Shown piece after piece: positions 38,430-60,973 of a stretch of DNA of 64,000 nt. The position numbers were made by a program, and so were the translations under genes. Position 1 is the first letter of the stretch, and each line of letters opens with the position of its first letter. The notes beneath the pieces were generated by a model that worked only from the letters and a program-made list of their open reading frames with translations, was not told where the DNA came from and did not search any database. This DNA is from Nordella sp. HKS 07. GTDB taxonomy: Bacteria; Pseudomonadota; Alphaproteobacteria; Rhizobiales; Aestuariivirgaceae. The stretch spans positions 3,924,001-3,988,000 of the forward strand of contig NZ_CP049258.1 in assembly GCF_011046735.1 (NCBI RefSeq). The letters run 5' to 3'.

Positions 38430-39134
38430 TCAGCGCGCGTTCTTTTTCCCCACGATTCGATGGCAGACCGGCCAATCGGCGACCGGCTCCATAAAATCGC
38501 GCGCCGGCTGATATTGCCGCAGTTTCCACTCCCGTGGCGACCAACTGACGAGCGTCTTGATGATCGCCTCTGCCAGTCCATGGGGCGGCACGTGATAGAG
38601 CACGACATCCGTGTCGCGCTCGGGCAGCTTATGCGGGTTGACCCAAGCGATGTCGCCGGGCCGGTAGGCGGGAACCATGGATTCGCCGACGATGAGGATC
38701 CCATAGGGATCCCGGACATGTAGGAGTTCGTCCGGCGCCACCAAATAATCGATGGGCGTGTGATCGATGATGAGATGTCCTGTGCCGCCTTGGGCTGCGG
38801 CAACGATCGGCAGGCGTCGGCTTCCGGTGCTGCCATCGGGTACAATGACAGGTTCTTCCAGGGGGCGGGGCCGAGGATAGAAGGGGTCACCGAGCTCAAG
38901 GATCTCTTCTTCACTCACGGGCGCTTCACCCGATATCGCACGGCCCACGAACAAAGGGATGAGAGCCTTGATGACTTCTGGTGGCAGATAATCCCGGGTG
39001 AATTTCTTCGGGTCCTCATAGTGCTGGTAGCCGGAAGGAGTTTTCAGGCCGAGTGCCATTGCGGCCTCCCTCATGCTCACGCCGGCGCGGTTGCGTAGCG
39101 CCTTCAAGCGCTGAGTGACGTGAATGAATGTCAT
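38430..39134 (-). CDS. Prophage repressor, XRE HTH plus S24 (LexA-like) peptidase
   Basis: A 234-residue protein from the ATG at 39134. The N-terminal HTH (RLKALRNRAGVSMREAAMAL) resembles XRE repressors. The C-terminal S24 domain has the serine in VGESMVPAY (Ser152) with Lys193 in AIIKTLVS as the candidate general base. Such repressors self-cleave after DNA damage and release lytic genes. An extension of 53 codons upstream lacks support. Promoter spacing suggests a leaderless message. Confidence 0.9.
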   Translation of the reverse strand: MTFIHVTQRLKALRNRAGVSMREAAMALGLKTPSGYQHYEDPKKFTRDYLPPEVIKALIPLFVGRAISGEAPVSEEEILELGDPFYPRPRPLEEPVIVPDGSTGSRRLPIVAAAQGGTGHLIIDHTPIDYLVAPDELLHVRDPYGILIVGESMVPAYRPGDIAWVNPHKLPERDTDVVLYHVPPHGLAEAIIKTLVSWSPREWKLRQYQPARDFMEPVADWPVCHRIVGKKNAR

Positions 39135-39137
39135 GTG

Positions 39138-39202
39138 ACGTTTATAGCGTAAATACTGTACGCAATCAACTTGACATTTGTACGTTTTTAGCGTATAAAT
39201 AC
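39138..39202. promoter_or_regulatory. Divergent lysogeny-switch promoters and operators
   Basis: Rightward: TTGACA (39171-39176), 17 bp, TATAAA (39194-39199), with ATG seven bases on. Leftward: TTGATT, 17 bp, TATAAA on the minus strand (39164-39169 and 39141-39146), with the repressor ATG six bases after the -10. Both messages look leaderless. Operator boxes ACGTTTATAGCGTA (39138-39151) and ACGTTTTTAGCGTA (39182-39195) overlap the two promoters. Confidence 0.8.
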
Positions 39203-39206
39203 CTGC

Positions 39207-39638
39207 ATGATCATCTTTCTTTCGGAAGCACTGAATGATCGCAAAACCGCCGCTCGAGTAACGCTCGCGGCGGCAGGGCCGGTCGAGCCGCAACCCTCCC
39301 CAGAGCTGGCTCCCGGCCCGACCCTTTCCAGTTCCGCCCGCAAGACACGGGCACAGTACTTCTCAAGGCGCAAGACGCCGGCCTTGGTGAACCAGGTACG
39401 CACCCTGTATCGGCGCGGAGAACGCTTCTCGGCGATTGCCCGGGCGCTTGCCGTCAATCCCGATACGGTGCGCCGCTGGCTCGACCCGGAATATGAGGAT
39501 CAGCGACGCAGCCGGACACGCCGGACGATACAGGACGAGAATGTGCTCGCGAATGAGGAGGGAATGCTGCCGACGCTTCCCTTTGTTCCCGGCATCACGG
39601 TCTCCGGCCGTTACCGCATGAAGCGGCCGCACCCATAG
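39207..39638 (+). CDS. HTH protein opposite the repressor (Cro-like position)
   Basis: A 143-residue protein. A basic, Pro-rich N-terminus precedes a clear HTH (LYRRGERFSAIARALAVNPD, then TVRRWLDPEY) of the homeodomain-like type used in terminases, recombinases and regulators. It is the first rightward gene, driven by the switch promoter with no room for a ribosome site, so leaderless translation is likely. A regulator like Cro or CII is the natural reading but is inference. Confidence 0.75.
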   Translation: MIIFLSEALNDRKTAARVTLAAAGPVEPQPSPELAPGPTLSSSARKTRAQYFSRRKTPALVNQVRTLYRRGERFSAIARALAVNPDTVRRWLDPEYEDQRRSRTRRTIQDENVLANEEGMLPTLPFVPGITVSGRYRMKRPHP

Positions 39639-40589: not shown

Positions 40590-40856
40590 ATGCCGAAAAG
40601 AAAACGCGCCGTTGACCTCTTCCGCCACGAACGCCGCAAGATCCGTGAGAGCGGCGTCCTCGAGGCGTTGATCCAATATGTCGAAGGCAAGCGCGACATG
40701 TCGTCAAGCCAGGTTGCCGCAGCCCTTGGACTGCTCATGAAGGCGGTGCCGGATCTGTCGAGCTTCACGCCATTGGTGGCGCATGGCGGGGCGAGGGAAG
40801 AGAGGCTCGACGACGCTTCCGCTATAGATTTCCGCGCTATCGATCCTCGACGTTGA
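40590..40856 (+). CDS. Small prophage protein (88 aa), possible terminase-small-like
   Basis: From the ATG at 40590 after GGAGG. A Lys/Arg-rich start (PKRKRAVDLFRHERRK) precedes a helical part with SSQVAAALGLLMKAVPDL, a pattern seen in phage DNA-packaging small subunits and related proteins. The frame is open far upstream through the repeat region, but that is probably fortuitous. Position just before portal would suit a packaging role. Inference only. Confidence 0.55.
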   Translation: MPKRKRAVDLFRHERRKIRESGVLEALIQYVEGKRDMSSSQVAAALGLLMKAVPDLSSFTPLVAHGGAREERLDDASAIDFRAIDPRR

Positions 40857-40997
40857 TGTCGCGCGCGCCGTCCAGCCGCTGCTCGTCCCAAGCCGCAACA
40901 AGGGCACATGTGGTGGAAAAAATCCGAGACCCCGGCAAGCAACGGATCACTCATCACTTTCCGTGGCATGCAATCCTTCAATGCGGAGAACGCGCAC

Positions 40998-43187
40998 ATG
41001 AATGACTACGAGCCCGCCGACGACGGCGCGGTGTTCCGCGATGCGCGTCCCTGGCAAGAATGCATCGCGGACGCCAGGAAGCACTTTCAGGTCTGGCAGG
41101 ACAAATGTGACAGCATTGACAGCCTCTATGCGGATCTGAAGCGCCTCGCCGACTCAAGCGGCGATCGCGAGTTCCAGATGTTCTGGGCCAATCTGGAAAT
41201 CATGAAGCCGTCGCTATACTCGAGGTCGCCGCGGCCCGCCGTGGCGACCCGCTTCAACGACATGGCGCCGCTCCCCCGCGCCGCCTCCGAAACGCTCGAG
41301 CGGGCGCTCACCGTCAATTTCGAGCTCGAAGACATCAATTCCGTGATGCTGCTCGTCAGGGATGACATGCTCATCAATGGCCGCGGCGTCGCCTGGGTCC
41401 GCTACGAAGACGATATCGACCCGGTCGACGGAGCAAGCATCGAGGCTCCCGCGGAACCACAGAACCAGCGTGTTCCCTATGAACATGTCGACCGTGCCGA
41501 CTTTCTTCATGAGCCCGCGCGCAAGTGGCAGGAGGTGGGCTGGGTGGCGAAGCGCGCCTGGCTGACGCGCGACCAGGGCCTGGCCCGTTTTGGAGACATC
41601 TTCGCCACCGTCGATCTCAAGGAACGCAAGGAAGTCTCGGCTAATGGCGACGGTGCCGATTATCAGGGCGAGCGCAAGGGCGAGGTGTGGGAAATCTGGT
41701 CGAAGACCAGGAATGTCGTCGTTTGGGTAGCGGAGGGGCTCGACGAAGTCTTGGATATTCGCGAGCCGTTCCTCAGGATCGAAGGCTTTTTTCCATGTCC
41801 GAAGCCGGCCTATGCGACATTGGAGCGGCGCAAGCTGATTCCGGTGCCCGATTATTACTTCAGTAGAGATCAGCTCGATGAAATCAACGAGCTGACGGCG
41901 CGCATATCCGCACTTGCCGAATCTCTGCGGATGAAGGGCCTTTATGCCGCGGGCGCCGGCGATCTCGCCGAAGCGGTAGAGACGGCGCTGCGCCAGCAGG
42001 ACAACAATGCCATCCTCGTGCCGGTTGCGAACTTCGCGGCGCTGGGCGGTGCTGCCCTGCGGGACACCATCCTCTGGCTGCCGCTCGCCGAAGTCGCTGC
42101 GACCATCAAGGAGTTGATCTTCCTGCGCCGGCAGATCATCGACGATGCCTATCAGATCACCGGTCTCAGCGACATCATGCGCGGGGCGACGGAACCCGCC
42201 GAGACGGCTACGGCGCAGGAACTGAAAAGCCAGTATGGATCGGTGCGGATCAGGGAGCGCCAGGCCGAACTGGTCCGGTTCGCCCGAGATCTAGTCCGCA
42301 TCGCCGGCGAGATCATGGCGGAGAATTTCACGCCGCAAACATTCGTTGCGATGACGCAGATGAACTTGCCGACAGCGGCGACCCTGCAGCGCCAGGCTCA
42401 AGAGATCACCACGCAGGCCGGTCAGCAGCTGAAGATTCCGCAGGATCAGGCGACGGCAAATGCACCAGAGCAGCTTCAGCAGCTACAAGCAGACGCGCAG
42501 GCCAGGCTGCGGGAACTCGCCGCGACGGTGACGATCGAGCAGGTCGTGGCCCTCTTGCGCGAGCAGCGCATTCGGCCCTTCGTGCTCGAGATCGAGACCG
42601 ACAGCACCATTCAGGTCGATGAAGACAGCGAGAAGCGGCGGCGCACCGAGTTCCTGGCGTCGCTTGCCAGTGTCATCCAGCAGCTGACACCGCTGGTTCA
42701 GACCCAACCAGCGGCAGGACCATTCGCGGCCGAGATGATCAAGTTCGCTGTGGCGCCGTTCCGCGCCGGACGCGCCATGACGGCGGTGATCGACGAGTTT
42801 ACCGACGCGATCCGCACCCAGGCGCAGCAAGCCACGGCGAGCGCGCAGCCGAGTCCCGAGCTGGTCCTGGCGCAAGCCGAGGCGGCCAAGCTCGACTTCG
42901 AGAAGCAGAAGCATGTCGATCAAATGGCGTTGCGCGCGAAGGAGCTCGACCAGACGAATGATCGCGAGATCCGCAAGGCGCGGCTCGAGGGGGACCTCGC
43001 CGGCGACGGGGCCGGGCAGCCGGCGGCCTACTCGATGTCCGAGGTGATAACCCAACTGGCCCAGCAGAACGCCCAAGTTCTCCAGGCCCTGGCGATGATC
43101 GCCCAAGTGCTCGCGGCGCCGAAGACGGTGACGACGCCGGAGGGCCGCATCTACTCGACGCAACCCGCCCTACCTCAGCAGGGATGA
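40998..43187 (+). CDS. Phage portal protein (P22-like)
   Basis: About 729 residues from the ATG at 40998 (GGAG nine bases before); the frame opens earlier at 40908 and that start cannot be excluded. It is the usual size of P22-type portals, with the N-terminal ARKHFQVWQDKCDSI helix, a central DYYFSRDQLDEINELTARI segment and a long Gln/Ala-rich helical C-terminal barrel (EAAKLDFEKQKHVDQMAL). It forms the dodecameric DNA gate of the capsid. Unusually, no large terminase precedes it. Confidence 0.88.
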   Translation: MNDYEPADDGAVFRDARPWQECIADARKHFQVWQDKCDSIDSLYADLKRLADSSGDREFQMFWANLEIMKPSLYSRSPRPAVATRFNDMAPLPRAASETLERALTVNFELEDINSVMLLVRDDMLINGRGVAWVRYEDDIDPVDGASIEAPAEPQNQRVPYEHVDRADFLHEPARKWQEVGWVAKRAWLTRDQGLARFGDIFATVDLKERKEVSANGDGADYQGERKGEVWEIWSKTRNVVVWVAEGLDEVLDIREPFLRIEGFFPCPKPAYATLERRKLIPVPDYYFSRDQLDEINELTARISALAESLRMKGLYAAGAGDLAEAVETALRQQDNNAILVPVANFAALGGAALRDTILWLPLAEVAATIKELIFLRRQIIDDAYQITGLSDIMRGATEPAETATAQELKSQYGSVRIRERQAELVRFARDLVRIAGEIMAENFTPQTFVAMTQMNLPTAATLQRQAQEITTQAGQQLKIPQDQATANAPEQLQQLQADAQARLRELAATVTIEQVVALLREQRIRPFVLEIETDSTIQVDEDSEKRRRTEFLASLASVIQQLTPLVQTQPAAGPFAAEMIKFAVAPFRAGRAMTAVIDEFTDAIRTQAQQATASAQPSPELVLAQAEAAKLDFEKQKHVDQMALRAKELDQTNDREIRKARLEGDLAGDGAGQPAAYSMSEVITQLAQQNAQVLQALAMIAQVLAAPKTVTTPEGRIYSTQPALPQQG

Positions 43188-43194
43188 ACCAACC

Positions 43195-43596
43195 ATGACC
43201 ATGCAATACTCGGTCGCGGTGCGCAATGCGCGCCTAGACGTCGTTGAAACCACGATCGGCGTGAGCCCGGTGCTGGAAATCCGCTCCGGCGCGCCGCCGG
43301 TCAACTGCGCCGCGGCCGATAGCGGGACCGTGCTCGCCACGGTGAACCTTCCATCCGACTGGATGCTGGCGGCTTCCGCCGGTTCGAAGTCCAAATCCGG
43401 CACCTGGCAGGATCTCTCGGCTGACGCCGCGGGCACTGCCGGCCATTTCCGGCTCAAGCAGGGCGGCGCCTGTCATATGCAGGGCACATGTTCCATGACT
43501 GGCGGTGGCGGCGACATGATCCTGGACAATACGAACTTCGCCATCGGTCAGGTCTTCACGGTGGTGAATTTCGCGCTGACGGCGGGGAATCCCTGA
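43195..43596 (+). CDS. Phage structural-type protein (133 aa)
   Basis: A beta-rich protein. It begins TMQYSVAVRNARLDVVETTIG, with a Gly/Ala-rich centre and the end TGGGGDMILDNTNFAIGQVF. I recognise it as a type often placed after portal genes in alphaproteobacterial prophages, of unknown function. It overlaps the next gene by one base (TGATG), and eight bases separate it from portal. Confidence 0.7.
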   Translation: MTMQYSVAVRNARLDVVETTIGVSPVLEIRSGAPPVNCAAADSGTVLATVNLPSDWMLAASAGSKSKSGTWQDLSADAAGTAGHFRLKQGGACHMQGTCSMTGGGGDMILDNTNFAIGQVFTVVNFALTAGNP

Positions 43597-44243
43597 TGGC
43601 GGACGATGTCACTCTTCCTGGCACCGGCGCGGTCATCGTCACTGACGATGTCGGCGGCGGCCGGCAGATCCAGCTGGTCAAGCTTGACGGCGGCGCCAAT
43701 GGCGCATCGGCGCCGGTGGTCTCTGGCGCGCAGGCGAGCGCGAACAGCCTGCCTGTTGTCGGCCCGAACGACGAATTTGTCACGGTGACCGTCGATGTGA
43801 CGCGGCCGGCCGACACCACCGCCTATGCGGTCGACGACTGTATCTCCAACAGCACATCGGCCCCCACGACATTCACCATCTCCAATGCTGCTAAGGCCTC
43901 GGGTGGGTCGGGCCTCATCACCGATATGACCGTCCTCTCCAATAATGATCCGCTTGCCGCGCTGCAGGGAGAGATTTTCCTGTTCGACAGCGCCGTTATT
44001 TCACCAAACGACAACGCCGCCTTTCAAGTTTCGGACGCCGATGCGAGAAAGTGCATCGGCAAGATACCCTTCATGCTGGAGGACATCGGCAACAACGAGT
44101 TCTTCCACGCGCAGGGTATCAATATCGGCTTCACTTGCGTGGGATCCGCCGATCTACGCTTTCTCTTGCGTGCCAAGAACACCTATGTTCCGGCCAGCGG
44201 CGAAGTATTCACTTTTCGCTTGAAGATTCAACGGCTCACTTAG
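43596..44243 (+). CDS. Phage structural-type protein (215 aa)
   Basis: From the ATG at 43596, which overlaps the upstream stop. A beta-sandwich-like, Ala/Gly/Thr-rich protein with FVTVTVDVTRPADTTAYAVD and a C-terminal VGSADLRFLLRAKN segment; such proteins decorate virions or tails. No catalytic motif. Exact role unknown. Confidence 0.7.
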   Translation: MADDVTLPGTGAVIVTDDVGGGRQIQLVKLDGGANGASAPVVSGAQASANSLPVVGPNDEFVTVTVDVTRPADTTAYAVDDCISNSTSAPTTFTISNAAKASGGSGLITDMTVLSNNDPLAALQGEIFLFDSAVISPNDNAAFQVSDADARKCIGKIPFMLEDIGNNEFFHAQGINIGFTCVGSADLRFLLRAKNTYVPASGEVFTFRLKIQRLT

Positions 44244-44254
44244 CGGAGGTGCTC

Positions 44255-44935
44255 ATGTACCTGCGCAATCGCGTGCGGATGACAACACGGAAGAAGCCTC
44301 CGTCACGCATACTCTTCGGCGCGAGTGCTGTTACTGGAACAGACGCCACGTCCTATTCGTTCACGGGCCTTACGGTTGTAACGCCGCCAGACACACATAG
44401 AAATCTCTATGCTTGGATATTCAGCAGTATTGGCAACACAACGCCGGCGCAGACTGAGCCGACCGGGTGTACGATAGGTGGTATTCCCGCCGCACTTGTG
44501 TCGCAGTTTTCTCGCGTAGTCGCAACGTCAAGCTGCTGTGTGGCTCTATTTGCTGCCCGCGTTCCCGGAGGAGCAACGGCTACCGTCGCTCCAACTTTCG
44601 GTTTCACTGTACGACGCTGCGGCTGCATCCTCGCATCGGCCATTGCGCCACGTCTGATGCCGCCCCTATTTGGGCTCCTAACCGCGACAGGACTGGATGA
44701 TATTTTCGGGACGGTGCTGGTTCCGAGTGCAGGCTTCATCAGCATTCATAGCCAGAATATCAATACAGCCAGTTCCGACGTTTTCGCGTTTTCCGGGGCT
44801 GGAACGGCGGAGCAGACTGACGTGTTTGTCGAAGGCGGTACCCGTATAGCGGCGGCAACTCTTGCCTTCAGCGGCGATCTTTCAATTGTCGGAGCCAACG
44901 ACTCAGGCATGGACGCTATATGGATGGGGTGGTGA
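44255..44935 (+). CDS. Phage protein with tail/decoration character (226 aa)
   Basis: From the ATG at 44255 after GCGGAGG. A beta-rich sequence with repeated Ser/Thr/Gly stretches and an unusual Cys cluster (SSCCVALF, then RRCGCILA). Base composition is visibly lower in GC than the genes before it and like the antisense ATP-grasp gene that ends two bases later. Function unknown; it may travel with that enzyme as a cargo pair. Confidence 0.65.
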   Translation: MYLRNRVRMTTRKKPPSRILFGASAVTGTDATSYSFTGLTVVTPPDTHRNLYAWIFSSIGNTTPAQTEPTGCTIGGIPAALVSQFSRVVATSSCCVALFAARVPGGATATVAPTFGFTVRRCGCILASAIAPRLMPPLFGLLTATGLDDIFGTVLVPSAGFISIHSQNINTASSDVFAFSGAGTAEQTDVFVEGGTRIAAATLAFSGDLSIVGANDSGMDAIWMGW

Positions 44936-44937
44936 GG

Positions 44938-45879
44938 CTACACCGCCAGTTTTCGGGTTACCTCTATTAGTGCGTCAGTGATGGTATCAAGCGCCTTGAA
45001 TTGGCTGCCATAGTTAAGTCCATACTTCTGCTGTTGCGCCAGTCCGTAGTCTGAAGAAATGTGCCAGAAGCGGCCGCCGGAGTTAAATTCAAGGGTAAAG
45101 AGTTGGCCAGTTTTTACCTCGCGAATGATGTCGATGCCCATAGCTGGAAGCTGAGGCAATTTGGAGTGAATGCTCTTCGCGAGGTCTATAACCTCTGAGT
45201 CGTAGTTGAGAGTTACGCTGCGATCGACGCTGTTGGCAGCCACTTCCATTTCCGTGTCCTCCGAAGTTGCAAGATCTGGCCTTCTTTCAAGCGCCTTCGA
45301 GACGATAGAATAGATGGGCCGACCAAGAACCGTCATCACCCGGTAAGACGTCACAAACGGACCAGTATCCACATAACGCTGCGCGAGAAGGCTTTGACCG
45401 TGGCGCGGGTCATATTTGGGTAATACTGATGTGTCAGTCCACAAATGAAGATCGGTGGTACGAATTAGACGGACGCCGCGACCTTGTTTGCCCAGGATAG
45501 GCTTGATTACAGTGTAAGGCCCCCATTTGGTCTCATCGATCTGCATGTCGGGCTTAATCACATGTGTTTCGGGGACCAGAGCGCCGACGCGTGACAGAAG
45601 TTGAATCTCTTCGAGCTTATTTAGAGGAGTGGAGATCAGCCTGGCGCCTCTGATCCGAACGCCAGGATGGTCAATATGGACTGCGACGGGCGAGAAGATG
45701 AGGCTCGGCAACTGTGCGGCCTTAGACCAAAAGTCAAACAGCAGTTTCGCCGCGAGCGAGCCAATATGAACCTGGATATCAGGCGCTCGAACGGCGATCA
45801 GCTCGCGGACTGTCAGAAAGTCCGTAAGCTTCTGTTTTTCCGGAACGTGCAGAATAACAAGATTGCGCCTATGCGTCAT
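44938..45879 (-). CDS. ATP-grasp enzyme, antisense within the structural operon
   Basis: A 313-residue protein. An N-terminal Rossmann-like part (NLVILHVPEKQKLTDFLTV) is followed by an ATP-grasp domain: Lys126 (YTVIKP), the glycine loop GKQGRG near 130-135, Arg180, Asp250 (AMGID), and the Mg ligands Glu264 and Asn266 in LEFNSGG. The domain is intact. RimK-like ligases join a carboxylate to an amine via acyl-phosphate. The substrate is unknown. Opposite strand and lower GC than neighbours suggest a cargo (moron) gene. Its start has an AAGAG site. Confidence 0.85.
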   Translation of the reverse strand: MTHRRNLVILHVPEKQKLTDFLTVRELIAVRAPDIQVHIGSLAAKLLFDFWSKAAQLPSLIFSPVAVHIDHPGVRIRGARLISTPLNKLEEIQLLSRVGALVPETHVIKPDMQIDETKWGPYTVIKPILGKQGRGVRLIRTTDLHLWTDTSVLPKYDPRHGQSLLAQRYVDTGPFVTSYRVMTVLGRPIYSIVSKALERRPDLATSEDTEMEVAANSVDRSVTLNYDSEVIDLAKSIHSKLPQLPAMGIDIIREVKTGQLFTLEFNSGGRFWHISSDYGLAQQQKYGLNYGSQFKALDTITDALIEVTRKLAV

Positions 45880-45952
45880 GGCTCTTATTGGGGTTATAGC
45901 GACATGGTTTTAGCTTGTAGCATATCCGCAGCAACGTTTGGATAGTTAAACA

Positions 45953-46456
45953 ATGTCCCTCCTGCTGCTTTTCAACGGCGGTGTCATTGGGCCGGTCGAG
46001 GGAGACCTCGCTGAAGCGGAAGCCAATGACACGCTATCGGCTTCGGCCGTTCTGGAAATCGTCGCGAATGGGGCGACGACGGAGAGTGACGACGTGGCCC
46101 CAGCAGCCGGCGCCGTCGGCCTCGCCGGCTCAGCGACCATTGCTGAGGCGAATGACGTCGCCGCCGCCGCGGCGACGCTGGGCACTGCCGCGCGCCTCGT
46201 GGCCGTGGAAGGTGACGATGATCCATCCGCCGGCGGCGCGCTCGCCATCGTTGCATCCGCGACGTGGGGGAGCAAGGCGACATCATCGACGCCTCGGGCG
46301 CCGTCGGCATTGCCGCCTCCCTGTCGATTGCGGAAGAGGAGGACACGCTTTCCCTATCGGCGCTCATGCCGACCTGGTACTTGCGCCGCGGCGGCGACGA
46401 CGCATGGGTCCAATACGAGTGCCGGCAGCGCGAGTGGGAAGAACAGCTTCGCCTGA
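45953..46456 (+). CDS. Repetitive phage structural protein, 5' part of a frameshifted gene
   Basis: The frame starts MSLLLLFNGGVIG and continues through Ala-rich repeats of the form AEANDxxSAxAxLxI. After about 46262 the repeat pattern stops and the reading turns into Arg/Pro-rich nonsense. The natural continuation lies in the -1 frame from 46264. The change falls at a run of five G (46266-46270); one more G would restore a single ~236-residue protein. A repetitive virion protein is likely. Confidence 0.6.
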   Translation: MSLLLLFNGGVIGPVEGDLAEAEANDTLSASAVLEIVANGATTESDDVAPAAGAVGLAGSATIAEANDVAAAAATLGTAARLVAVEGDDDPSAGGALAIVASATWGSKATSSTPRAPSALPPPCRLRKRRTRFPYRRSCRPGTCAAAATTHGSNTSAGSASGKNSFA

Positions 46457-46662
46457 TCATCGATCGATCCTGGCGCATCGCCAATGGTGAAATCAATCCA
46501 ATCACCTTTGAGCCGATCCCGCCGCCGGATCACAGTGCCGTCGTCGGCGAGTTGATCCATCGGGCCCTGACGCTCGACCAGGCGAGGACAGAGGCTTTCA
46601 TCGCCGAGCAGGAACGTCTGCAGGAAGAGGAAGCGATCGCCATTTTGCTGGTGGCCTCCTAG
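46264..46662 (+). CDS. 3' part of the frameshifted repetitive phage protein
   Basis: Continues the repeat pattern (ASGAVGIAASLSIAEEEDTL) of the upstream frame. It then ends in a globular-to-helical tail: ALMPTWYLRRGGDDAW, a conserved-looking Trp/Tyr-rich block, and a Glu-rich coiled end. A GTG at 46264 is available but has no ribosome site, so independent translation is doubtful. Either a sequencing or mutational indel, or a -1 ribosomal slip on the G run, would join it to the upstream frame. Confidence 0.6.
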   Translation: MGEQGDIIDASGAVGIAASLSIAEEEDTLSLSALMPTWYLRRGGDDAWVQYECRQREWEEQLRLIIDRSWRIANGEINPITFEPIPPPDHSAVVGELIHRALTLDQARTEAFIAEQERLQEEEAIAILLVAS

Positions 46663-46783
46663 AGCGCTTCCCGCGAAAGTTGCTCGACTTTCGCGACAAG
46701 GAAGCGCTCCAGGTTTATGCAATCGAGCCTTTTCATCCCATTTTGATCGAATCCATTGATTCGATCAAAACGGGAAAGGCTCC
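46661..46783. repeat. Host-type palindromic repeat inside the prophage
   Basis: Two hairpins occur. The first has AGAGCGCTTCC (46661-46671) and GGAAGCGCTC (46700-46709) as outer arms with CGCGAAAGT/ACTTTCGCG inside. The second has TTTTGATCGAATC (46741-46753) and GATTCGATCAAAA (46758-46770). The design is that of dispersed Rhizobiales intergenic repeats. It lies between two structural genes and suggests long residence in the host. Confidence 0.7.
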
Positions 46784-47084: not shown

Positions 47085-47110
47085 CTCTCTCTCAGACAGA
47101 GGATATGTTC

Positions 47111-48109
47111 ATGATTGATGATGCCGGAGCGGCGCCCGCCGCAACCGAACCTACGTATTTTCAGAATGATGTCGCCTCCCAGGAGACCGCCGTCGAGCGT
47201 TCGCAAGAGACAGCACGCAGCTCGCTCGATCGTGCCTTCGCCGTGATCGACGCGCAAGAGAACGAGCCTTCCGGATCCGTAGGAAAGAGAGCGCCGGCGG
47301 GCGAGGTCAGTCAGTCGGTGTCCAGCGCCGAGGCGCCGGCGCGCTTCTCGATCGATGCCAGGGCTGTCTGGAACGATGTGCCGGATGCGGTAAAAGGTGA
47401 AGTCGGCCGTGCAATACGTGAGCTCGAGGGTGGGCTCATGCAATATCAGCAGGCCTTCGAGCCGCTGAAACCCTACTTTCAGATGGCTCAGCAATCCGAG
47501 ACCACAATACAAGAGGCTCTCGAGCGATATACCGCACTGGATGGTGCGTTGATTTCCGAGAAGCCCGAGGAGCGCCTGCGCGCGATCGAGAGCGTCCTCG
47601 GCTATGCGGGCGTCACGCCACACGACTATGCCCAGTATATCCTGAACCAGAAGCCCGACGAAGCACAGGCGCGAAGCGATCAGACCATCCGCGCTTTGCG
47701 CCAGGAGCTGGCTGACTTGCGCAATCAGCTGGGTGGCGTCTCCAGATCCATTCAGCAGCGCCACGCGGACGATGCCTTGAGGCAGGTCGAGGCGTTCGCC
47801 GCGGAGAATCCCAGACTGCATGAGTCGGACCTCCAGTTGATGATCGTGCGGCTCCTCGAGACGCAGATGGCCGACACGCTTCAGAGCGCCTACGAAATGG
47901 CGGAGCGGCTCATTCCCGCACCGGTTGCCGGCGCTCCACTTGCCGCCCCGGTGGCGGCAAATCGCAGGGCCGGCGCGGCTCAGACCCGCAACGGCAACTT
48001 GTCTGTAACAGGTGCTCCAGGCTCCGGCTCAAACCCGGCGAAGCGCAAGGCCCCGTCATCCGCCCGGGAAAGTGTCGACAGCGCTTTTACGTCGCTCGGC
48101 CTCGGGTGA
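47111..48109 (+). CDS. Probable scaffolding protein
   Basis: About 332 residues from the ATG at 47111 (GAGG eight bases before; an ATG two codons earlier is too close). Acidic N-terminus, long coiled helices in the middle (SDQTIRALRQELADLRNQLG), and a basic C-terminus rich in Ala and Arg. This charge layout and its place directly before the coat gene are typical of capsid scaffold proteins, which template procapsid assembly and then leave. No sequence motif proves it. Confidence 0.75.
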   Translation: MIDDAGAAPAATEPTYFQNDVASQETAVERSQETARSSLDRAFAVIDAQENEPSGSVGKRAPAGEVSQSVSSAEAPARFSIDARAVWNDVPDAVKGEVGRAIRELEGGLMQYQQAFEPLKPYFQMAQQSETTIQEALERYTALDGALISEKPEERLRAIESVLGYAGVTPHDYAQYILNQKPDEAQARSDQTIRALRQELADLRNQLGGVSRSIQQRHADDALRQVEAFAAENPRLHESDLQLMIVRLLETQMADTLQSAYEMAERLIPAPVAGAPLAAPVAANRRAGAAQTRNGNLSVTGAPGSGSNPAKRKAPSSARESVDSAFTSLGLG

Positions 48110-48140: not shown

Positions 48141-49139
48141 ATGGCACTGAACACCAATGAGCGCCTGCAAGAGGCGTTCTCGCTGGCCTTGGAGGATCGG
48201 TCGCAGGGTTATGCCGACCTTGTGTCGAACTCCAACGCGCTGCTCTTCGTCATGAAGAAGCGCAACCAGTTCAAGACCTTCTCGGGTCCGACGATCCGCG
48301 AGCGTCTGCTCTACAACGAAAGCGGCACCTATACCCGCTATTCCGGCTACGAGTTCCTCAACCCGCAGCCGGCCGAACTCTTCAACGATGCTGAGTTCAC
48401 GCCCAAGCTCGCCGCCGTGTCGGTGACCTTGTCGAACGAGGACATCCTGAAGAACTCAGGGACGAGCCAGCTCAAGGACATCATGGAGGAGCACATCACG
48501 GCGGCCGAGCAGGAGCTCACCGACCGTTTTGTGGAAGACCTCCACAGCAACGGCACCGCCGCCAATCAGATCGGCGGCCTGCAGCTGGTCCTGCCCACGG
48601 TGGTGAACTCCGGCACTTATGGCGGTATCGCCCGGTCGAACGCCATCTGGCAGACTTCGGCCTTCGACGCCAACTCGGCCTTCCCAGGCATCACCCAGGT
48701 CGACAGCACGACGGTGCGGCGGATCTTCGAGAACATCATGATCCAGCGCAGCCGCGGGCCGAAGGGCCCGAACCTGATCCTGTCCTCGCAGGAGCACTAT
48801 ACGGCCTATGCCGGGGCACTCGTGGCAATCCAGCAGGTGACGAATGAGAACGAGCTCGGCGCCCTCGGCTTCACGTCGCTGCGCCTCCACAGCGCCAACA
48901 AGAAGGTCGATGTCGTGCTGGAAGGCGGCATCGGCTCCGCCATGCCCGCCAATACCAGCTACTTCATCGACACCACGGCCTTACGCTTCCGCTATCACCC
49001 GGATCGCAACTTCGTCCGCTTCGGTGGAAAGCAAATGCCCATAAACCAGGACGCCATCGTCCAGCATATCGGCTTCTTCGGCGAGCTGACCATGAACAAC
49101 CCGTTGCACATGGCCAAGCTCTACGATTCGACGCCGTAA
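48141..49139 (+). CDS. Major capsid (coat) protein
   Basis: A 332-residue protein starting ALNTNERLQEAFSLALEDRS. The middle has NESGTYTRYSGYEFL and a long EEHITAAEQELTDRFVEDLH helix followed by PNLILSSQEHYTAYAG and a VRFGGKQMPINQD end, in the style of HK97-fold coats of alphaproteobacterial podoviruses. Strong ribosome site AAGGAG. It is the most highly expressed virion component by position. Fold assignment rests on length, context and general pattern. Confidence 0.85.
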   Translation: MALNTNERLQEAFSLALEDRSQGYADLVSNSNALLFVMKKRNQFKTFSGPTIRERLLYNESGTYTRYSGYEFLNPQPAELFNDAEFTPKLAAVSVTLSNEDILKNSGTSQLKDIMEEHITAAEQELTDRFVEDLHSNGTAANQIGGLQLVLPTVVNSGTYGGIARSNAIWQTSAFDANSAFPGITQVDSTTVRRIFENIMIQRSRGPKGPNLILSSQEHYTAYAGALVAIQQVTNENELGALGFTSLRLHSANKKVDVVLEGGIGSAMPANTSYFIDTTALRFRYHPDRNFVRFGGKQMPINQDAIVQHIGFFGELTMNNPLHMAKLYDSTP

Positions 49140-50258: not shown

Positions 50259-50954
50259 ATGACTATCCTCACCGCAATTCAGAATGTCTCCGCTGCGATC
50301 GCTCTCAACCGGCCGGAAGCCGTCTTCAGCTCGACCGAGCGCGAGCATTTTGAATTGCAGGTGCTGGCGAACACGGCCGGGCTCTATATCGCCAAGGACT
50401 ACGAGTGGCAGGCGCTCAGGGTCGTCGGCACGCTCACCGGCGACGGCACGAAAACGGCCTTCGACCTGCCGGCGGATTACGACCGCATGCTGAAGGAGGC
50501 CGAGTTCCGTTCCAGCCGCTACATCACGGCGCTGACGCATATCATCGACAGCGATCATTGGCTGGACATGGAAATCCGCCAGTTCAACCAGATCGCCGGC
50601 ATGTGGACGCTCCATGGCGGGCAGATCCATATCCGCCCGGCGCCGGCGGCCGGCGAGGCGGTGAAGTTCTTTTACATGTCGAAGCTCTGGGCCAAGGATG
50701 ACCAGGGCACGCTGAAGGATGGCTTCACCAAGGACAGCGACACCTTCCAGCTCTCCGAAAAGATCCTCGAGCTCTGCATGATCTGGAAGTGGCGGGCGCA
50801 GAAGGGGCTGCCCTATGCGCAGGACCAGGACAACTACGAAGACGCAAAGGAGAAACTGCAGGCTGCTGATAAGGGCTCGCGCATCATCTCGGTCGGCCGC
50901 GCGCGCCGTCTCCGCGGCATGACCTCGACTTATCCAGTCTCGATCGTGCCCTGA
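50259..50954 (+). CDS. Head-tail adaptor protein (P22 gp4-like)
   Basis: A 231-residue protein whose fold signals suit the phage adaptor family: a helical start (LTAIQNVSAAIALNRPEAVF), a central beta region around YDRMLKEAEFRSSRY and a helical end with ILELCMIWKWRAQKGLPYAQ. Such proteins dock onto the portal ring. It starts two bases after the upstream gene and its stop overlaps the next ATG (TGATG). Confidence 0.75.
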   Translation: MTILTAIQNVSAAIALNRPEAVFSSTEREHFELQVLANTAGLYIAKDYEWQALRVVGTLTGDGTKTAFDLPADYDRMLKEAEFRSSRYITALTHIIDSDHWLDMEIRQFNQIAGMWTLHGGQIHIRPAPAAGEAVKFFYMSKLWAKDDQGTLKDGFTKDSDTFQLSEKILELCMIWKWRAQKGLPYAQDQDNYEDAKEKLQAADKGSRIISVGRARRLRGMTSTYPVSIVP

Positions 50955-51003: not shown

Positions 51004-52527
51004 GTGCCGAAGACTTTCCTGGCTCCGGTCCGCGGCTGGGTGCAGTCCGAAAGCCTGGCCGCCGCTCAACCGAATGGCGCCTCACTCCTCGAAAACTTCT
51101 TCCCGACGACGCGCGGCATCCGGCCCCGCGGGGGCTCGCTGCGGCACGCGACCATCGCCGCTGGCGTCAAAAGCCTGATGGTGTGGCGCAGCGGGACATC
51201 CGAGCGACTATTCGCCACCGACGGCACCGCCATCTACAACATCACCAGCCCGGCGAGCGCGACTGTGCAGCCGGCCGCAGATGCGTCAGGCTTGAGCAGC
51301 GGCCTTTTCTCCTCGGTCATGTTTGCCGGCACCGCTGGCGACTTCCTGGTGGCCGTCAATGGCGCCAATGACCGCCGCCTCTATGACGGTGCAGCCTGGA
51401 CCACAGCGCCGGCGATCACCGGGGTGGCGTCATCTTCGCTCTCGCATGTCTGGGTCTTCAAGAATCGGCTGTTCTTCGTCCAGAAGAACACGATGAATGC
51501 CTGGTGCCTGGCTGTCGATGCAATCGGCGGGGCGGCCACCCAGATCTCGCTGTCCGGCGTCTTCAAGAAAGGCGGCTCGCTGCTCTTCGGCGACAGCTGG
51601 TCGGTCGATGCCGGCGACGGCCTCGATGATATCTGTGTCTTCATCAGCTCGCTGGGTGAGGTCGTCGCATTTTCCGGCAGCGATCCCGCTGATCCTGTCA
51701 ATTGGAGCATGGAGGGCCGCTACGATATCGGCCAGCCTCTGGGGCCGAATGCCTACTTGCGCGCCGGTGGTGATCTCATCATTGCGACGACTGATGGTAT
51801 GGTCCCGCTCTCGGCTGCCATGAACAAGGATCCCGCGGCGCTGACCCTCGCTGCGGTCTCCCGCGCGATCGAGGATGAATGGAAGCGCCAAGCCGTGGCG
51901 CGGCAGACATCCCGACAATGGTCTTGCGCGAAGTGGGTCGCCAGAAATATGGCGATCATCGGCTTGCCGACGGTCGGTGCCAGCGAGAAATGCGCTTATG
52001 TCGTCAATCTTCTGACTGGCGCCTGGGCGAAGTATACGGGCTGGGACATCGCGGCCCTGGCGGAAATGGGCAATCTGATCTTCTTCGGCACGCCGGGCGG
52101 CGGCGTCATGATCGCGGAAGCAAGCGGCACCGATGACGGCGAGCCATATTTTTCGACCTATATCGGCCTGTACGAGCACTTGAACAGCCCGGCGGTGAAA
52201 ACCGTAAAAATGGCGCGCTCGACATGGTTGCATCGTAAACCGTTCAAGCCAGCGCTGTCGTTCAGTTTCGATTACGTCCCGAAGCTGCCGGCATATCCGA
52301 ACGCAGCGGCGCATCCCAGCCTCGACGTCTGGGACGTCGGTCTGTGGGATGTAGCCCTCTGGGATGCCGGCATCGCGGAGCAGGTGACCACACGCTGGGT
52401 ATCCGTGTCGGGGCAGGGCTTCGCGGTGGCGCCGGTAATCCAGATTGCCCATTCATATGCCGGACCGCCCGAAGCCGAGTTGGTGTCGATCGATCTTCTC
52501 TATGAGCAGGGCGGGATGGCCGTATGA
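51004..52527 (+). CDS. Tail protein of the P22 gp10 (packaged DNA stabilisation) type
   Basis: A 507-residue, beta-propeller-like protein (FLAPVRGWVQSESLA, NFFPTTRGIRPRGGS, DGTAIYNITSP), typical of the hub protein that plugs the podovirus tail. The frame opens with a GTG at 51004, but coding character reaches further back (PPPLHPPQAQARTVPKTF). The ATG at 50954 overlapping the upstream stop is out of frame by one base. One extra C near 50965 would give a continuous start MTSFPPPLHPPQ, so a small deletion or sequence error is likely. Confidence 0.78.
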   Translation: MPKTFLAPVRGWVQSESLAAAQPNGASLLENFFPTTRGIRPRGGSLRHATIAAGVKSLMVWRSGTSERLFATDGTAIYNITSPASATVQPAADASGLSSGLFSSVMFAGTAGDFLVAVNGANDRRLYDGAAWTTAPAITGVASSSLSHVWVFKNRLFFVQKNTMNAWCLAVDAIGGAATQISLSGVFKKGGSLLFGDSWSVDAGDGLDDICVFISSLGEVVAFSGSDPADPVNWSMEGRYDIGQPLGPNAYLRAGGDLIIATTDGMVPLSAAMNKDPAALTLAAVSRAIEDEWKRQAVARQTSRQWSCAKWVARNMAIIGLPTVGASEKCAYVVNLLTGAWAKYTGWDIAALAEMGNLIFFGTPGGGVMIAEASGTDDGEPYFSTYIGLYEHLNSPAVKTVKMARSTWLHRKPFKPALSFSFDYVPKLPAYPNAAAHPSLDVWDVGLWDVALWDAGIAEQVTTRWVSVSGQGFAVAPVIQIAHSYAGPPEAELVSIDLLYEQGGMAV

Positions 52528-52967
52528 GACCGGTCTATGGGCAGGACGAGGCGGTGGCCAAGCTGGTGGCGAGCCTGATACCGGCCGCCGCTCGCGGTTT
52601 CGGCGACAATTTTACCGCCATGGGTGTCGATCATGGCGGCCTCCTGGTCGGAGGCTTCATCTTCACCAGCTGGTCGCCCAAAACCGGCACCATCGAAATC
52701 AGCTATGCCGGCATCGGCCGTCGCTGGCTGACGCGGCCGGTGCTCTACGCGGCCTTCTCGTATGTGTTCGACGGCGTCGGGTGCCAGATGGCGATCGCTC
52801 AGATGCCGGCGAGGCTGAGGCATGCTGTCCGCATCGCGCGCGCCTATGGCTTTGAGCAGGTGACTATCCCACGCCTCTTCGGGCGTAACGAAGACGGCGT
52901 CATTTCCACGCTCACCGTCGAGGACTGGCGGGCGAACGGATTCCACAAGGAGCACAGACATGGGTAA
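52524..52967 (+). CDS. Phage GNAT-like protein (147 aa)
   Basis: A protein with an acetyltransferase-like layout. The beta strands around GFIFTSWSPKTGTIEISYAG are followed by a Arg-rich helix (PARLRHAVRIARAYGFEQV) that may hold the CoA site. Such GNAT-like proteins are common near podovirus tail genes. Overlaps both neighbours by 4 and 8 bp, so it is translated with them. Confidence 0.7.
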   Translation: MRPVYGQDEAVAKLVASLIPAAARGFGDNFTAMGVDHGGLLVGGFIFTSWSPKTGTIEISYAGIGRRWLTRPVLYAAFSYVFDGVGCQMAIAQMPARLRHAVRIARAYGFEQVTIPRLFGRNEDGVISTLTVEDWRANGFHKEHRHG

Positions 52968-53937
52968 AGGCAAGGCGCCCAAACCGCCTGATATGACGAA
53001 GCTCGCCAACGCGCAGACTTCAGCGAATATAGGCACTGCCCTCACCGAGAGAATGATGAATATGGGCGGTGGCATGGAAACGCCGGACGGCTCGGTGAGC
53101 TATTCGCAGAGCGGCATCTATGATTGGACCGATCCAGTCTCGGGCAAGAAATATTCCATCCCGCTGATGAAGTCGACGACGTCGCTCTCGGCGGCGCAGC
53201 AGGCGATCAAGGACAAGAGCGACTCGGCGAAGCTCACCGCGGCCGGCATCGCCGATACCCTCGGTAGGCAATTTGCCCAGGCCGGCGACTTCGAGAACGA
53301 TATCGATAATCGGATCTACGATATGGGGCTCAAGCGCGTGCAGCCTCGAATGGATGAGGCGCGCCGGCGCGCCGAAACCAATGCCGTTAATCGCGGCATT
53401 CGGCCGGGCTCGGCTGCCTTTGACGTGCTGATGCGCGATGTCGGCCAGCAGGAAAACGATGCTTACACCCAGCTCGCCCTGAACAGCCGTGGGCAGGCGA
53501 TGAATGAGCGCGCGCAGCGTGCTGGCGAGATCGCCGGCTTTCTCGGCATGGGGCAGCCCGCCGCGGCGCCCGTCGCACCGCAATATCAGAGCAATCTGCC
53601 GACGGTCGATCATATTGGCCTTGGGATGCAGAACTATCAGAACCAGCTCGGGGCTTGGCAACAGAAGAACCAAAGCCTCAATCAGGCGCTCGGCGGCATG
53701 TTTGGCATCGCCGGCAACTTCATCAAATATTCGGATCGACGGCTGAAGACCGACATCAATAAGGTCGGCAGGACCGACGACGGCCAGAACATCTATTCAT
53801 ATCGCTATCGCGGCGACAAACGCATGCATCTCGGTCTCATGGCGCAGGAGGTCGAGAAAAAGCATCCCGACGCGGTCGTCGATGTCGGCGGCTACAAAGC
53901 TGTGGATTACAGCAAAGCCCTTCATCTCGGAGCGTAG
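52960..53937 (+). CDS. Virion protein with C-terminal S74 intramolecular chaperone
   Basis: A 325-residue protein. Residues 1-250 are helical and Ala/Gln-rich, with no fibre-like beta-helix. The last ~70 residues are an S74 self-cleaving chaperone domain: Ser258 and Lys263 in YSDRRLKTDI form the catalytic dyad, then HLGLMAQEVEKKHPDAV. Cleavage is expected just before Ser258 after trimer folding. S74 domains normally end long tail fibres, so its place on a short protein is unusual. Confidence 0.88.
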   Translation: MGKGKAPKPPDMTKLANAQTSANIGTALTERMMNMGGGMETPDGSVSYSQSGIYDWTDPVSGKKYSIPLMKSTTSLSAAQQAIKDKSDSAKLTAAGIADTLGRQFAQAGDFENDIDNRIYDMGLKRVQPRMDEARRRAETNAVNRGIRPGSAAFDVLMRDVGQQENDAYTQLALNSRGQAMNERAQRAGEIAGFLGMGQPAAAPVAPQYQSNLPTVDHIGLGMQNYQNQLGAWQQKNQSLNQALGGMFGIAGNFIKYSDRRLKTDINKVGRTDDGQNIYSYRYRGDKRMHLGLMAQEVEKKHPDAVVDVGGYKAVDYSKALHLGA

Positions 53938-57260: not shown

Positions 57261-58088
57261 ATGAGAGCCTTCCATTGGCTTGTCGCGGTCGGCTGCGCGC
57301 TCGGCCTGTTGCTACCCGCAACCGAAGCCCGCTTCGTTCGGGCGCAGGAAATCTGGGATCTGACGAAGATGGCCGAGCAGATTGACCAGACCAATGTTGT
57401 CGTCGGAGCCGACGGTGACGGCTTCTGCTCGGGCACGATCATCTCGAAACAGCTCCGTCTCGTGCTCACCGCCTCCCATTGCGTGACGGATCGCGTCACC
57501 CGTGAGACACAGGAATTCGTGGATCCGGTGACCGGCGAGGTCACGAAGAAGACGATCGAGAAGAAACTCGACCTCGAGATCTGGCAGAATGTCACCCGGG
57601 ATTATCAGGTGATTTCATCTCGCCGTTACGTTGCGAAGATCGTCGGCAACGATAGCCAGAACGATGTCGCGCTGCTCCAGATTCTCGATCTCGAATTCAA
57701 GGCCCAGATGGAAGCACCGCTGGCGCCGGATAGCCATCGGCTCATGCGCGGTCAGACCATCTACGTGGTCGGGAACCCGGGCGTCGTGCTCGACAACTCT
57801 GTTACGAAAGGCATCGTTTCCTCGACCGAGCGGACGCTTAACATCGGCGGCAAACTGCTCAAGGTCTTCCAGATCGATGCCGCCTCAATCGGCGGCAATT
57901 CGGGTGGATCGGTGCTGAACGAACGAGGAGAGCTCGTCGGAACGCTTGATGCGGGGTTGCGCGGGTCGGGCATCAACTTCGCTGTGCCGATCTCGGCGAC
58001 GAAGGCCCTGCTACGCCGGAGTGGATTCGCCGGCCTGGCATTTTCCCAGGTAAAGAAGCACGACCGCATCGCGCCGGAGACGCGCTGA
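57261..58088 (+). CDS. Secreted trypsin-like serine protease in the lysis cassette
   Basis: A 275-residue protein with an N-terminal signal peptide (RAFHWLVAVGCALGLLLPA). The chymotrypsin-fold triad is His73 (LTASHC), Asp135 (NDVALL) and Ser214 (GGNSGGSV), all intact. It is exported to the periplasm and resembles trypsin-like proteases of the S1 family. It precedes the amidase with a one-base overlap (TGATG), so it is co-translated with lysis genes. A role in envelope breakdown or in processing is inference. Confidence 0.88.
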   Translation: MRAFHWLVAVGCALGLLLPATEARFVRAQEIWDLTKMAEQIDQTNVVVGADGDGFCSGTIISKQLRLVLTASHCVTDRVTRETQEFVDPVTGEVTKKTIEKKLDLEIWQNVTRDYQVISSRRYVAKIVGNDSQNDVALLQILDLEFKAQMEAPLAPDSHRLMRGQTIYVVGNPGVVLDNSVTKGIVSSTERTLNIGGKLLKVFQIDAASIGGNSGGSVLNERGELVGTLDAGLRGSGINFAVPISATKALLRRSGFAGLAFSQVKKHDRIAPETR

Positions 58089-58807
58089 TGCGGCGCCGCT
58101 CGACAGACTATATCGTGCTGCACTGTTCGGCCACGCCGCCCACCGCCGATATCGGCGTCCTGGAAATCCGCCGCTGGCACAAAGCCAAGGGGTGGAGCGA
58201 CATCGGATATCATTTCGTTATCCGTCGAAACGGAGATATCGAGGAGGGGCGGCCGGCTGGTGACATCGGCAGCCACGTCAAGAACCAAAATGCCATTTCC
58301 GTAGGCCTGTGTCTCATTGGCGGAGTCGACACCAGGCAAAGGCCAAGGAACAATTTCACCGACGAACAATGGTCTGCGCTTCGGCGGCTTCTGGCTGAAC
58401 TTCAGTCGCGTTATCCGCATAGTCTGGTCATCGGCCATCGCGATTTTCCTGATGTCGCCAAAGCATGCCCGTGTTTTGACGCGATCGCGTGGGCGGGGAA
58501 AAATGGATTCCGCGCCGCGCCGCGGTTTCGCCCCGTCTCGGCCTCCGTGCTGCGTGCCATCCGGCGCGAGACCGAGGACGGCGATGAGGCCGACGAGACG
58601 GAAGCAATCGCTAAAACTGGTCCGGGGAAATGGCTGACGGCGATAGCAGGATCCGGCGGCGTCGGTTCTTTGGCCGGCGTCGGCTATGGCATGGACTGGC
58701 TCAGTCTCCTCATCTTCATGCTGGGTCTCACCACCGCCACTTGCGGTGTTCTCCTCGCCATTGGGCATGAGCGACGGGAGAAGCTCTGGGACAGGCTGTT
58801 CGGATGA
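58088..58807 (+). CDS. N-acetylmuramoyl-L-alanine amidase endolysin with C-terminal membrane segments
   Basis: A 239-residue protein of the T7-lysozyme-like amidase_2 type. Zinc ligands are His12 (VLHCSAT), His117 (IGHRDF) and Cys127, and Tyr41 and Lys125 (VAKACPCF) fit the catalytic pair. The end holds two hydrophobic helices (GVGSLAGVGYGMDWL and SLLIFMLGLTTATCGVLLAI), so the enzyme may be membrane-anchored. It cleaves the amide bond between MurNAc and peptide. Confidence 0.92.
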   Translation: MRRRSTDYIVLHCSATPPTADIGVLEIRRWHKAKGWSDIGYHFVIRRNGDIEEGRPAGDIGSHVKNQNAISVGLCLIGGVDTRQRPRNNFTDEQWSALRRLLAELQSRYPHSLVIGHRDFPDVAKACPCFDAIAWAGKNGFRAAPRFRPVSASVLRAIRRETEDGDEADETEAIAKTGPGKWLTAIAGSGGVGSLAGVGYGMDWLSLLIFMLGLTTATCGVLLAIGHERREKLWDRLFG

Positions 58808-59154
58808 TGACGCTTCTCGCCCGCTTGGGGCTGGGTGGCATCGGGCTCAAGAGCCTGGCCGCCCTCATCCTCATCCTATCAGGATTGCTCTTGGCGGCAG
58901 GTCTTGCGGCCAAGCTCTATGTTGCCGGTCTCCATGCCGAGCGGATCAAGTCGCTCGAGGCGACGATCGCTCGGATCAAAGAGGAACTCGTCGCAAATGA
59001 GACCGTAATCCGCCAGGCCGAGATCGAAGCTCGCGCCGCGGAAGCTGAGGAACGCAAGCTAAAGGAACTCATCGATGCGCTTCAGGACGTCAGGTCATGT
59101 CCTCTTACTCGCGAGCATGTTGACGGCCTGCGTCGGATCGACCAGGCCCCCTGA
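58804..59154 (+). CDS. Rz-like inner-membrane spanin
   Basis: A 116-residue protein with one N-terminal membrane helix (AALILILSGLLLAAGLAAK) and a long charged coiled coil (RIKSLEATIARIKEELVANE). This is the i-spanin profile. It overlaps the amidase by 4 bp, and an Rz1-like gene starts inside it in another frame. With its partner it fuses inner and outer membranes at the last step of lysis. Confidence 0.85.
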   Translation: MMTLLARLGLGGIGLKSLAALILILSGLLLAAGLAAKLYVAGLHAERIKSLEATIARIKEELVANETVIRQAEIEARAAEAEERKLKELIDALQDVRSCPLTREHVDGLRRIDQAP

Positions 59155-59335
59155 CATGAGAGTGCCGCTTCCAGATCCCCCGACGAGACTGCAAATGCGT
59201 TGCGACTTTCCGAATGTCGTGGTCGGCCAGGATGCGGTCATGGCTCTTTATCAAAGCCGGGCCGCGCTCAAGACATGCGAGGGCAAGCGTCGCGACTGGC
59301 AGAAGTTTTACCGCTACCTGCGTGAAAAGAGATAG
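59075..59335 (+). CDS. Rz1-like outer-membrane lipoprotein spanin, overlapping Rz
   Basis: An 86-residue protein with a lipoprotein signal whose lipobox is LTAC (cysteine near residue 19), followed by a Pro-rich segment (PDMRVPLPDPPTRLQ). Lipobox and Pro-rich start are the marks of o-spanins. It begins 80 bp before the Rz stop and runs past it, the standard overlapping Rz/Rz1 design. Confidence 0.85.
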   Translation: MRFRTSGHVLLLASMLTACVGSTRPPDMRVPLPDPPTRLQMRCDFPNVVVGQDAVMALYQSRAALKTCEGKRRDWQKFYRYLREKR

Positions 59336-60896: not shown

Positions 60897-60973
60897 TGGT
60901 GACCCCGGCACGATTTGAACGCGCAACCCTCAGATTCGAAGTCTGATGCTCTATCCAATTGAGCTACGGGGCC
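60897..60973 (-). tRNA. tRNA-Arg (anticodon TCG)
   Basis: Read on the minus strand, a full cloverleaf can be folded. The acceptor is GGCCCCG with CGGGGTC, the D-arm GCTC...GAGC, the anticodon stem TCAGA/TCTGA with loop CTTCGAA (anticodon TCG), and the T-arm GCGCG-TTCAAAT-CGTGC. The CCA end is encoded. The 3' end faces the prophage. Confidence 0.95.

Follow-up and report, generated by a model that had tools for sequence, protein, structure and literature searches.

An ATP-grasp gene in the late operon of an inherited phage element: a probable amide ligase of the host lineage

Why should a gene for an ATP-grasp enzyme lie on the opposite strand of a phage late operon? The question is raised by a 64,000-nucleotide stretch of the Nordella sp. 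HKS 07 genome, hereafter the window. The original prediction was that a prophage carries the gene as cargo, and that its product may modify a protein of the virion or of the host. Our analysis points elsewhere. The gene probably encodes an amide ligase of the host lineage. It appears to have entered the late operon, in antisense orientation and as a single gene, of a phage element that is old and inherited. The enzyme would act on a host small molecule or short peptide. The features of the locus are collected in Table 1.

Table 1. Features of the phage element and of the ATP-grasp insert, in window coordinates.
Feature	Coordinates	Strand	Basis or remark
Phage element	38430-59584		S24 repressor, head and tail genes, S74 virion protein, protease, amidase, spanin
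S24-type repressor	38430..39293	-	profile match
Large terminase remnant, about 60 residues, partly fused to portal ORF	40837..41018	+	
Portal protein	40908..43187	+	phrog_12082, 2.4e-190
Virion structural protein	43195..43596	+	phrog_3758
Gene B, 226 aa, variable-slot gene, Cys-bearing	44255..44935	+	no Pfam or credible PHROGs match
Insert, stop of gene B to start of gene C, 1,017 bp	44936..45952		6 bp in G003 and G001
ATP-grasp carboxylate-amine ligase (enzyme P0001), 313 aa	44938..45879	-	Pfam, family alignment, predicted fold
Leader of ATP-grasp gene, 73 bp	45880..45952	-	no sigma-70-like promoter by consensus scan
Gene C region (MSLLLLF... start)	45953..46662	+	two overlapping ORFs, 45953-46456 and 46264-46662
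Virion structural protein	47105..48109	+	phrog_25516
Major head protein	48141..49139	+	phrog_9953; 85-97% identical in four sister genomes
Tail protein	50259..50954	+	phrog_6013
Large late-operon protein	51004..52527	+	phrog_5107, 'amidase' per PHROGs; no Pfam match
Acyl-CoA N-acyltransferase (PHROGs name)	52524..52967	+	phrog_4470; Pfam gives nothing
Virion protein with S74 chaperone domain	52960..53937	+	phrog_6121, PF13884
Lysis block: trypsin-like protease, amidase, Rz-like spanin	57261..59335	+	

The gene is intact, as had been claimed. It runs uninterrupted from ATG to TAG and has a predicted ATP-grasp fold. Its place between virion genes also held up: PHROGs names a portal and a structural protein on one side, and a structural and the major head protein on the other. 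Two bases separate its stop from that of gene B, again as described. The lower GC content was confirmed (0.521 versus 0.610 for the window), and GC3 is 0.576, versus 0.714-0.871 in six other measured genes. The similar composition of gene B was likewise borne out (GC3 of 0.559). A consensus scan of positions 44200-46700 found no sigma-70-like promoter (1.0 expected) and three terminator-like sites (2.4 expected). These scans neither show nor exclude expression of the gene. With no promoter found, it may be poorly expressed.

To which family does the product belong? Its relatives were collected by a genome search, in which 62 matches in total led to 45 unique family ORFs at the loci examined. 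Alignment A1 contains 36 members, P0001 included; nine ORFs of odd length or fragmentary nature were kept out (L037, L008:1489-2793, L016, L018, L022:2446-3501, L027, L028, L029 and L032). The other 35 members are 26-59% identical to P0001 over most of its length, far beyond chance. Alignment A4 holds 25 of a second set of 26 ORFs plus P0001, the fragment L070:3367-4062 being left out. Residue counts and the tree are based on 50 unique sequences from both alignments, with masked letters removed. Eight residues are invariant in all 50: G78, K88, K126, G173, R180, D250, E264 and W272. Asn266 is kept in 49 and Ser275 in 46. Thus, the five residues named in the original prediction (Lys126, Arg180, Asp250, Glu264 and Asn266) are conserved, as is Lys88, which it did not name.

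The catalytic set of ATP-grasp enzymes comprises a linker lysine, a strand-2 lysine, an aspartate and an ExN motif (PMC4431377). The family has these features in K88, K126, D250, E264 and N266, together with the fold. A conserved arginine marks the ATP-grasp assemblage that makes peptide-like bonds (PMC4431377). R180 lies within a predicted strand (177-184), and its place in the superfamily scheme is our own assignment. The invariant W272 is not among the catalytic positions cited above.

The AlphaFold2 model of P0001, built with 26 sequences, has a pLDDT of 91.7 and a pTM of 0.90. Among the 50 Foldseek matches listed from the PDB are Ddl, DcsG, LysX/ArgX, RimK, PsnB and PPIP5K-type inositol-phosphate kinases. 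E-values of these 50 run from 1.7e-12 to 1.7e-9, with identities of 10-19%, query-normalised TM-scores of 0.42-0.55 and an rmsd of 6.7-11.2 Å. Such low TM-scores and high rmsd values indicate a match to the superfamily, not to any single enzyme. The presence of the PPIP5K-type kinases means that the fold would still allow a kinase reaction. Solved chains gave no phmmer match to P0001 itself. With the 36-member profile, cyanophycin synthases matched best (E of 5e-4) and RimK followed at 0.008. Several phage ATP-grasps match among predicted viral proteins, with at most 18% identity in the 50 Foldseek matches listed. A role in defence found no support: none of the 36 members matches a PADLOC-DB model at E of 0.01. 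By residues and predicted fold, P0001 is an ATP-grasp enzyme of no named subfamily and most likely a ligase.

Among known enzymes, the α-L-glutamate ligases RimK, LysX-ArgX and MptN share with P0001 the ATP-grasp fold, a length of about 300 residues and the same catalytic set. However, P0001 scores 19.8 bits with the Pfam RimK model (cut-off 21) and 21.9 bits with NCBIfam rimK_fam (TIGR00768; cut-off 143.4), which 17 of the 36 members match weakly. Unlike the RimK group, the family has a distinct loop after ExN with the invariant Trp272, and no recurring partner gene. With the glutathione synthetase model GSH-S_ATP (PF02955), P0001 exceeds the gathering score (25.4 versus 23 bits), yet just one of the 36 members matches at E of 0.1 or better. 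In the glutathione synthase model TIGR01380 it reaches 15.9 bits, against an equivalog cut-off of 299.05. Indeed, P0001 reaches the cut-off of no NCBIfam model. Ddl and DcsG are its top Foldseek matches (E of 1.7e-12 and 1.1e-11), but with 10-16% identity and TM-scores of about 0.4-0.5; the Ddl model gives weak matches in two of the 36 members. The NCBIfam model STM4014 weakly matches 24 of the 36 members (best E of 1.4e-5), P0001 not among them, and the term was absent from the literature searched. We recognised no published description of the family among the literature matches listed.

The R2K clade of phages and bacteria deserves separate mention. It belongs to the ATP-grasp peptide-ligase assemblage, is patchy in its spread and includes some phage members (PMC4431377). 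For these ligases, a role in modifying proteins of the host has been proposed (PMC4431377, PMC7824862). Hence, the statement that such an enzyme fits no known phage function was too strong. The R2K_3 model gives weak matches in five of the 36 members. However, the R2K clade lacks the linker lysine, which is replaced by a lysine or arginine in the loop after strand 2 (PMC4431377), and Lys88 is present in all 50 sequences of the present family.

The relatives of P0001 are chromosomal genes of Alphaproteobacteria with a patchy spread. Matches occur in 33 of 199 genomes, that of HKS 07 included; 14 of these genomes have more than one match, with a maximum of eight. Three of the 33 (G091, G099 and G122) have weak partial matches alone (E of 5e-5 to 5e-4), which may be other ATP-grasps. 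The HKS 07 genome (7.18 Mb, one contig) has a second copy at 6684717-6685637, 32% identical to P0001. Another collection yielded 18 loci with names, from Aestuariivirga, Taklimakanibacter, Mesorhizobium, Devosia and Parvibaculum, plus bins named at most to Hyphomicrobiales, Rhizobiales, Xanthobacteraceae, Rhodospirillales, Alphaproteobacteria, Pseudomonadota or bacterium. The homologues are therefore chromosomal, which counts against the original prediction, but, being patchy and often multi-copy, they are hardly the plain housekeeping ligases that were to refute it. In the midpoint-rooted tree of 50 sequences, P0001 and eight others form a clade of nine, all from the host genus. The nearest relative found is 59% identical.

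In several genomes, two or three copies are adjacent to one another, which suggests multi-step ligation. At L058:7974-10952, three members stand in tandem; a sulfotransferase-like gene directly precedes them and amino-acid transporter-like genes follow, these neighbours being named by eye. This neighbourhood is a lead to the substrate.

A family borne by phages was considered and rejected. P0001 has no match in 50,697 phage records, nothing credible in PHROGs and no match in plasmid records. In IMG/VR, one contig alone matches and is identical to the ATP-grasp gene of the window. We also examined stretches of 79 other viral contigs that carry a related portal, drawn from the best 80 of 157 such contigs. 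No copy of the enzyme occurs in these stretches, 40 of which also show the head gene.

Does the family keep a partner? Among 49 loci, the window included, we found no shared neighbour (ORFs of at least 30 aa within 3 kb). The largest recurring group, a membrane-barrel-like protein named by eye, occurs at six of the 49 loci and the next groups at five. The comparison lists the 25 largest groups; it includes some orthologous loci and many whose flanks are short. It is therefore unlikely that a dedicated substrate gene lies near the enzyme, at least one for a protein of 30 residues or more. A substrate protein encoded elsewhere, or a short precursor peptide, would be compatible with the missing common neighbour.

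The sister genomes of the host genus show how the gene came to its place. By DNA comparison, the site of the element is shared by G003 and G002, as both flanks show, and by G001, as the right flank shows. The G001 contig starts within the left part and the G004 contig inside the portal gene, so this comparison covers three sisters. In G003 and G001, genes B and C are 6 bp apart, versus 1,017 bp in the window, where the gap is filled by the enzyme gene and 73 bp. The same element with 6 bp in two sisters, and with the ATP-grasp gene alone in the longer gap, marks the gene as a lone insertion. The gene C homologues of G003 and G001 are single ORFs of 236 aa. By our own reading, genes B and C of G002 overlap if C starts at its GTG, and G004 has different genes at this place. 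There is no homologue of the enzyme among the ORFs of the element regions examined in the four sisters.

For a transposon as the vehicle, no support was found: positions 44700-46200 hold no direct repeats of at least 12 bp, and the two inverted repeats there (13 and 12 bp) do not flank the insert. Because P0001 falls in a genus-only clade, the inserted gene most likely came from the genus's own pool, although its nearest relative found is 59% identical and its GC content lies below that of the window. At two chromosomal family loci of sister genomes, whose neighbours were sought in five genomes, no clear empty site was found that would mark them, too, as single-gene insertions.

The product of gene B was a candidate target of the enzyme. 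Gene B has no match in phage records, and in IMG/VR it matches the identical contig only. Matches occur in three of 199 genomes, its own included, and none at E of 0.001 in the four sisters. The same slot in G003, G001 and G002 holds other proteins of similar size. One of these, from G001, shares a 14-residue BLAST match with gene B at the same position (E of 0.008); the slot proteins of G003, G002 and G004 gave no credible profile match. Such a pattern would suit a virion gene that changes fast or is often replaced. The GC3 of the slot gene is 0.685 in G003, 0.658 in G001, 0.765 in G002 and 0.529 and 0.725 for two G004 candidates. Given this spread, composition alone does not tie gene B to the enzyme. 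A distant relative of gene B in G064, a 229-residue ORF, is followed by a gene with DUF4376, which we take to be a phage domain. There is no ATP-grasp gene within the 1.9 kb examined beside it, and the G064 member of the enzyme family lies on another contig.

A phage moron is a gene absent from related phages, different in composition and equipped with its own promoter and terminator. Could the ATP-grasp gene be one, its product tagging a particle protein, such as the adjacent gene B product, or a host protein during lysogeny? None of the 79 other portal-bearing viral contigs has a copy, and its GC3 stands apart. The opposite-strand position in a late operon and the foreign composition suit this account, as do the R2K-type peptide ligases of other phages (PMC4431377, PMC7824862). 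The near-lack of similarity between gene B, of like GC3, and the sister slot genes leaves room for joint arrival: since gene B lacks sister counterparts, it could have been replaced together with the insert. Co-acquisition of the two as a pair is thus possible, though not favoured. However, the slot is filled in three sister elements that lack the enzyme, which argues against gene B as a dedicated substrate, and the G064 relative has no ATP-grasp gene beside it. The family is chromosomal and free of PADLOC matches in 36 members, and no copy of the enzyme occurs in phage records or in the stretches examined of the 79 contigs. We therefore regard a moron that tags such a protein as improbable. 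With no shared partner at 49 loci either, the suggestion that the enzyme modifies a virion protein has no support beyond position and composition. What stands of the cargo claim is an intact, foreign-looking gene inserted antisense in a late operon.

More plausible, although still a minority prospect, is a passenger without present function: a gene that landed here, is silent and is heading for decay. The empty promoter scan, the antisense orientation and the occurrence of the enzyme in one of the five genus elements compared all fit. Conversely, the gene is full length and its catalytic residues are kept despite 59% identity to the nearest relative found. Intact catalytic residues at this distance imply long selection somewhere, perhaps before the insertion. 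Least credible of these rivals is a peptide maturase of the graspetide type, with a small ribosomal peptide as the precursor that it modifies. PsnB, a graspetide maturase, is among the Foldseek matches of P0001 (13-14% identity), and two NCBIfam peptide-maturase models match two and one of the 36 members weakly (best E of 0.026 and 0.051). However, the 1,017-bp insert is the gene plus 73 bp, with little other room, and no neighbour of at least 30 aa recurs at more than six of the 49 loci.

A captured amide ligase of the host lineage is the reading that we prefer. The family, its conserved residues, the insertion and the absence of phage relatives from the collections searched are direct results. 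We infer the reaction from fold, residues and superfamily analogy; the class of substrate and the expression of the enzyme are likewise inferences. Lys88 and Lys126 would hold ATP, with Mg2+ on Asp250, Glu264 and Asn266. By analogy with the superfamily, a carboxylate would be phosphorylated by ATP, and Arg180 would steady the resulting acyl phosphate. An amine would then attack this intermediate to yield an amide, ADP and phosphate. The family-specific loop after ExN (Gly269, Trp272, Ser275 and Ser276) probably shapes the substrate site. The substrate may be a small molecule or a short peptide in the host cytosol rather than a dedicated protein partner; this is the weakest step. The enzyme would be cargo of the element by place alone. 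The tempting story of a phage-encoded modifier thus needs correction: since the site is almost empty in two of the sister genomes, the enzyme in this phage operon is most likely a captured bacterial gene. The locus also draws attention to a family of likely amide ligases in Hyphomicrobiales that is often multi-copy and has been little described.

What kind of element received the gene? The late operon of a phage is there, as the word prophage implied, but 'inherited phage element' is the better name for the whole. Major head gene orthologues are present in all five host-genus genomes searched, and in nine of 199 genomes overall. The shared site and the head gene in 5/5 genomes amount to vertical inheritance with the host, a feature of gene transfer agents. 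Such agents also package random host DNA, and in the window the element's own terminase is a remnant. In every element pair compared, dN is below dS; for the major head gene, dN is 0.020-0.108 and dS 0.42-0.76. Judged by these rates, the head gene is under purifying selection. Host genes have dS values of 0.51-0.83 (three upstream) and 0.93-1.01 (one downstream). Most element genes equal or exceed the host-gene values, near saturation, and gene B had no counterpart. Since element dS is at or above host dS, the element dates back at least roughly to the species split, or it evolves faster. Among the element ORFs searched, none received the name of an integrase or replication gene; positions 39207-39638 give weak HTH-type matches.

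From these sequence comparisons the element is a domesticated one and possibly particle-forming, and its retention in five of five genus genomes searched makes it a candidate for the latter. An extension of this idea is that it forms a host-domesticated virus-like particle under the S24 repressor. The enzyme, made from the antisense strand during silence of the particle genes, would tag a particle or envelope protein and so alter how the particle acts in this one species. We consider this extension highly unlikely. The phrog_4470 gene, with relatives in G001, G002, G003, G004 and G135, may encode another modifying enzyme, independent of the ATP-grasp insert.

Compared with the window copy, the G002 element (L165) is longer by about 2.4 kb in the part from the portal-side genes to the head gene, and by about 4 kb beyond the head gene. 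Thus, more than one species has gained insertions in this late operon.

The large terminase, a remnant in the window, is full length and in place in G001, G002 and G003 (454 and 451 residues align in G001 and G003, with no stops). A lone full-length copy lies about 415 kb away in the HKS 07 genome (L178:14633-15973, equal to G000:C1:3550633-3551973). It is 86% identical to one of two extra G002 copies and at most 76% identical to the in-place copies. Movement of the terminase within the genome is therefore less likely; by these identities, the lone copy more likely belongs to another remnant. It could serve the element in trans. Beyond the lysis block, by 1.3 kb, is a tRNA-Arg (tcg) gene at 60897-60973, and the corresponding position in G003 and G001 holds similar DNA. 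The tRNA gene is a possible old attachment site.
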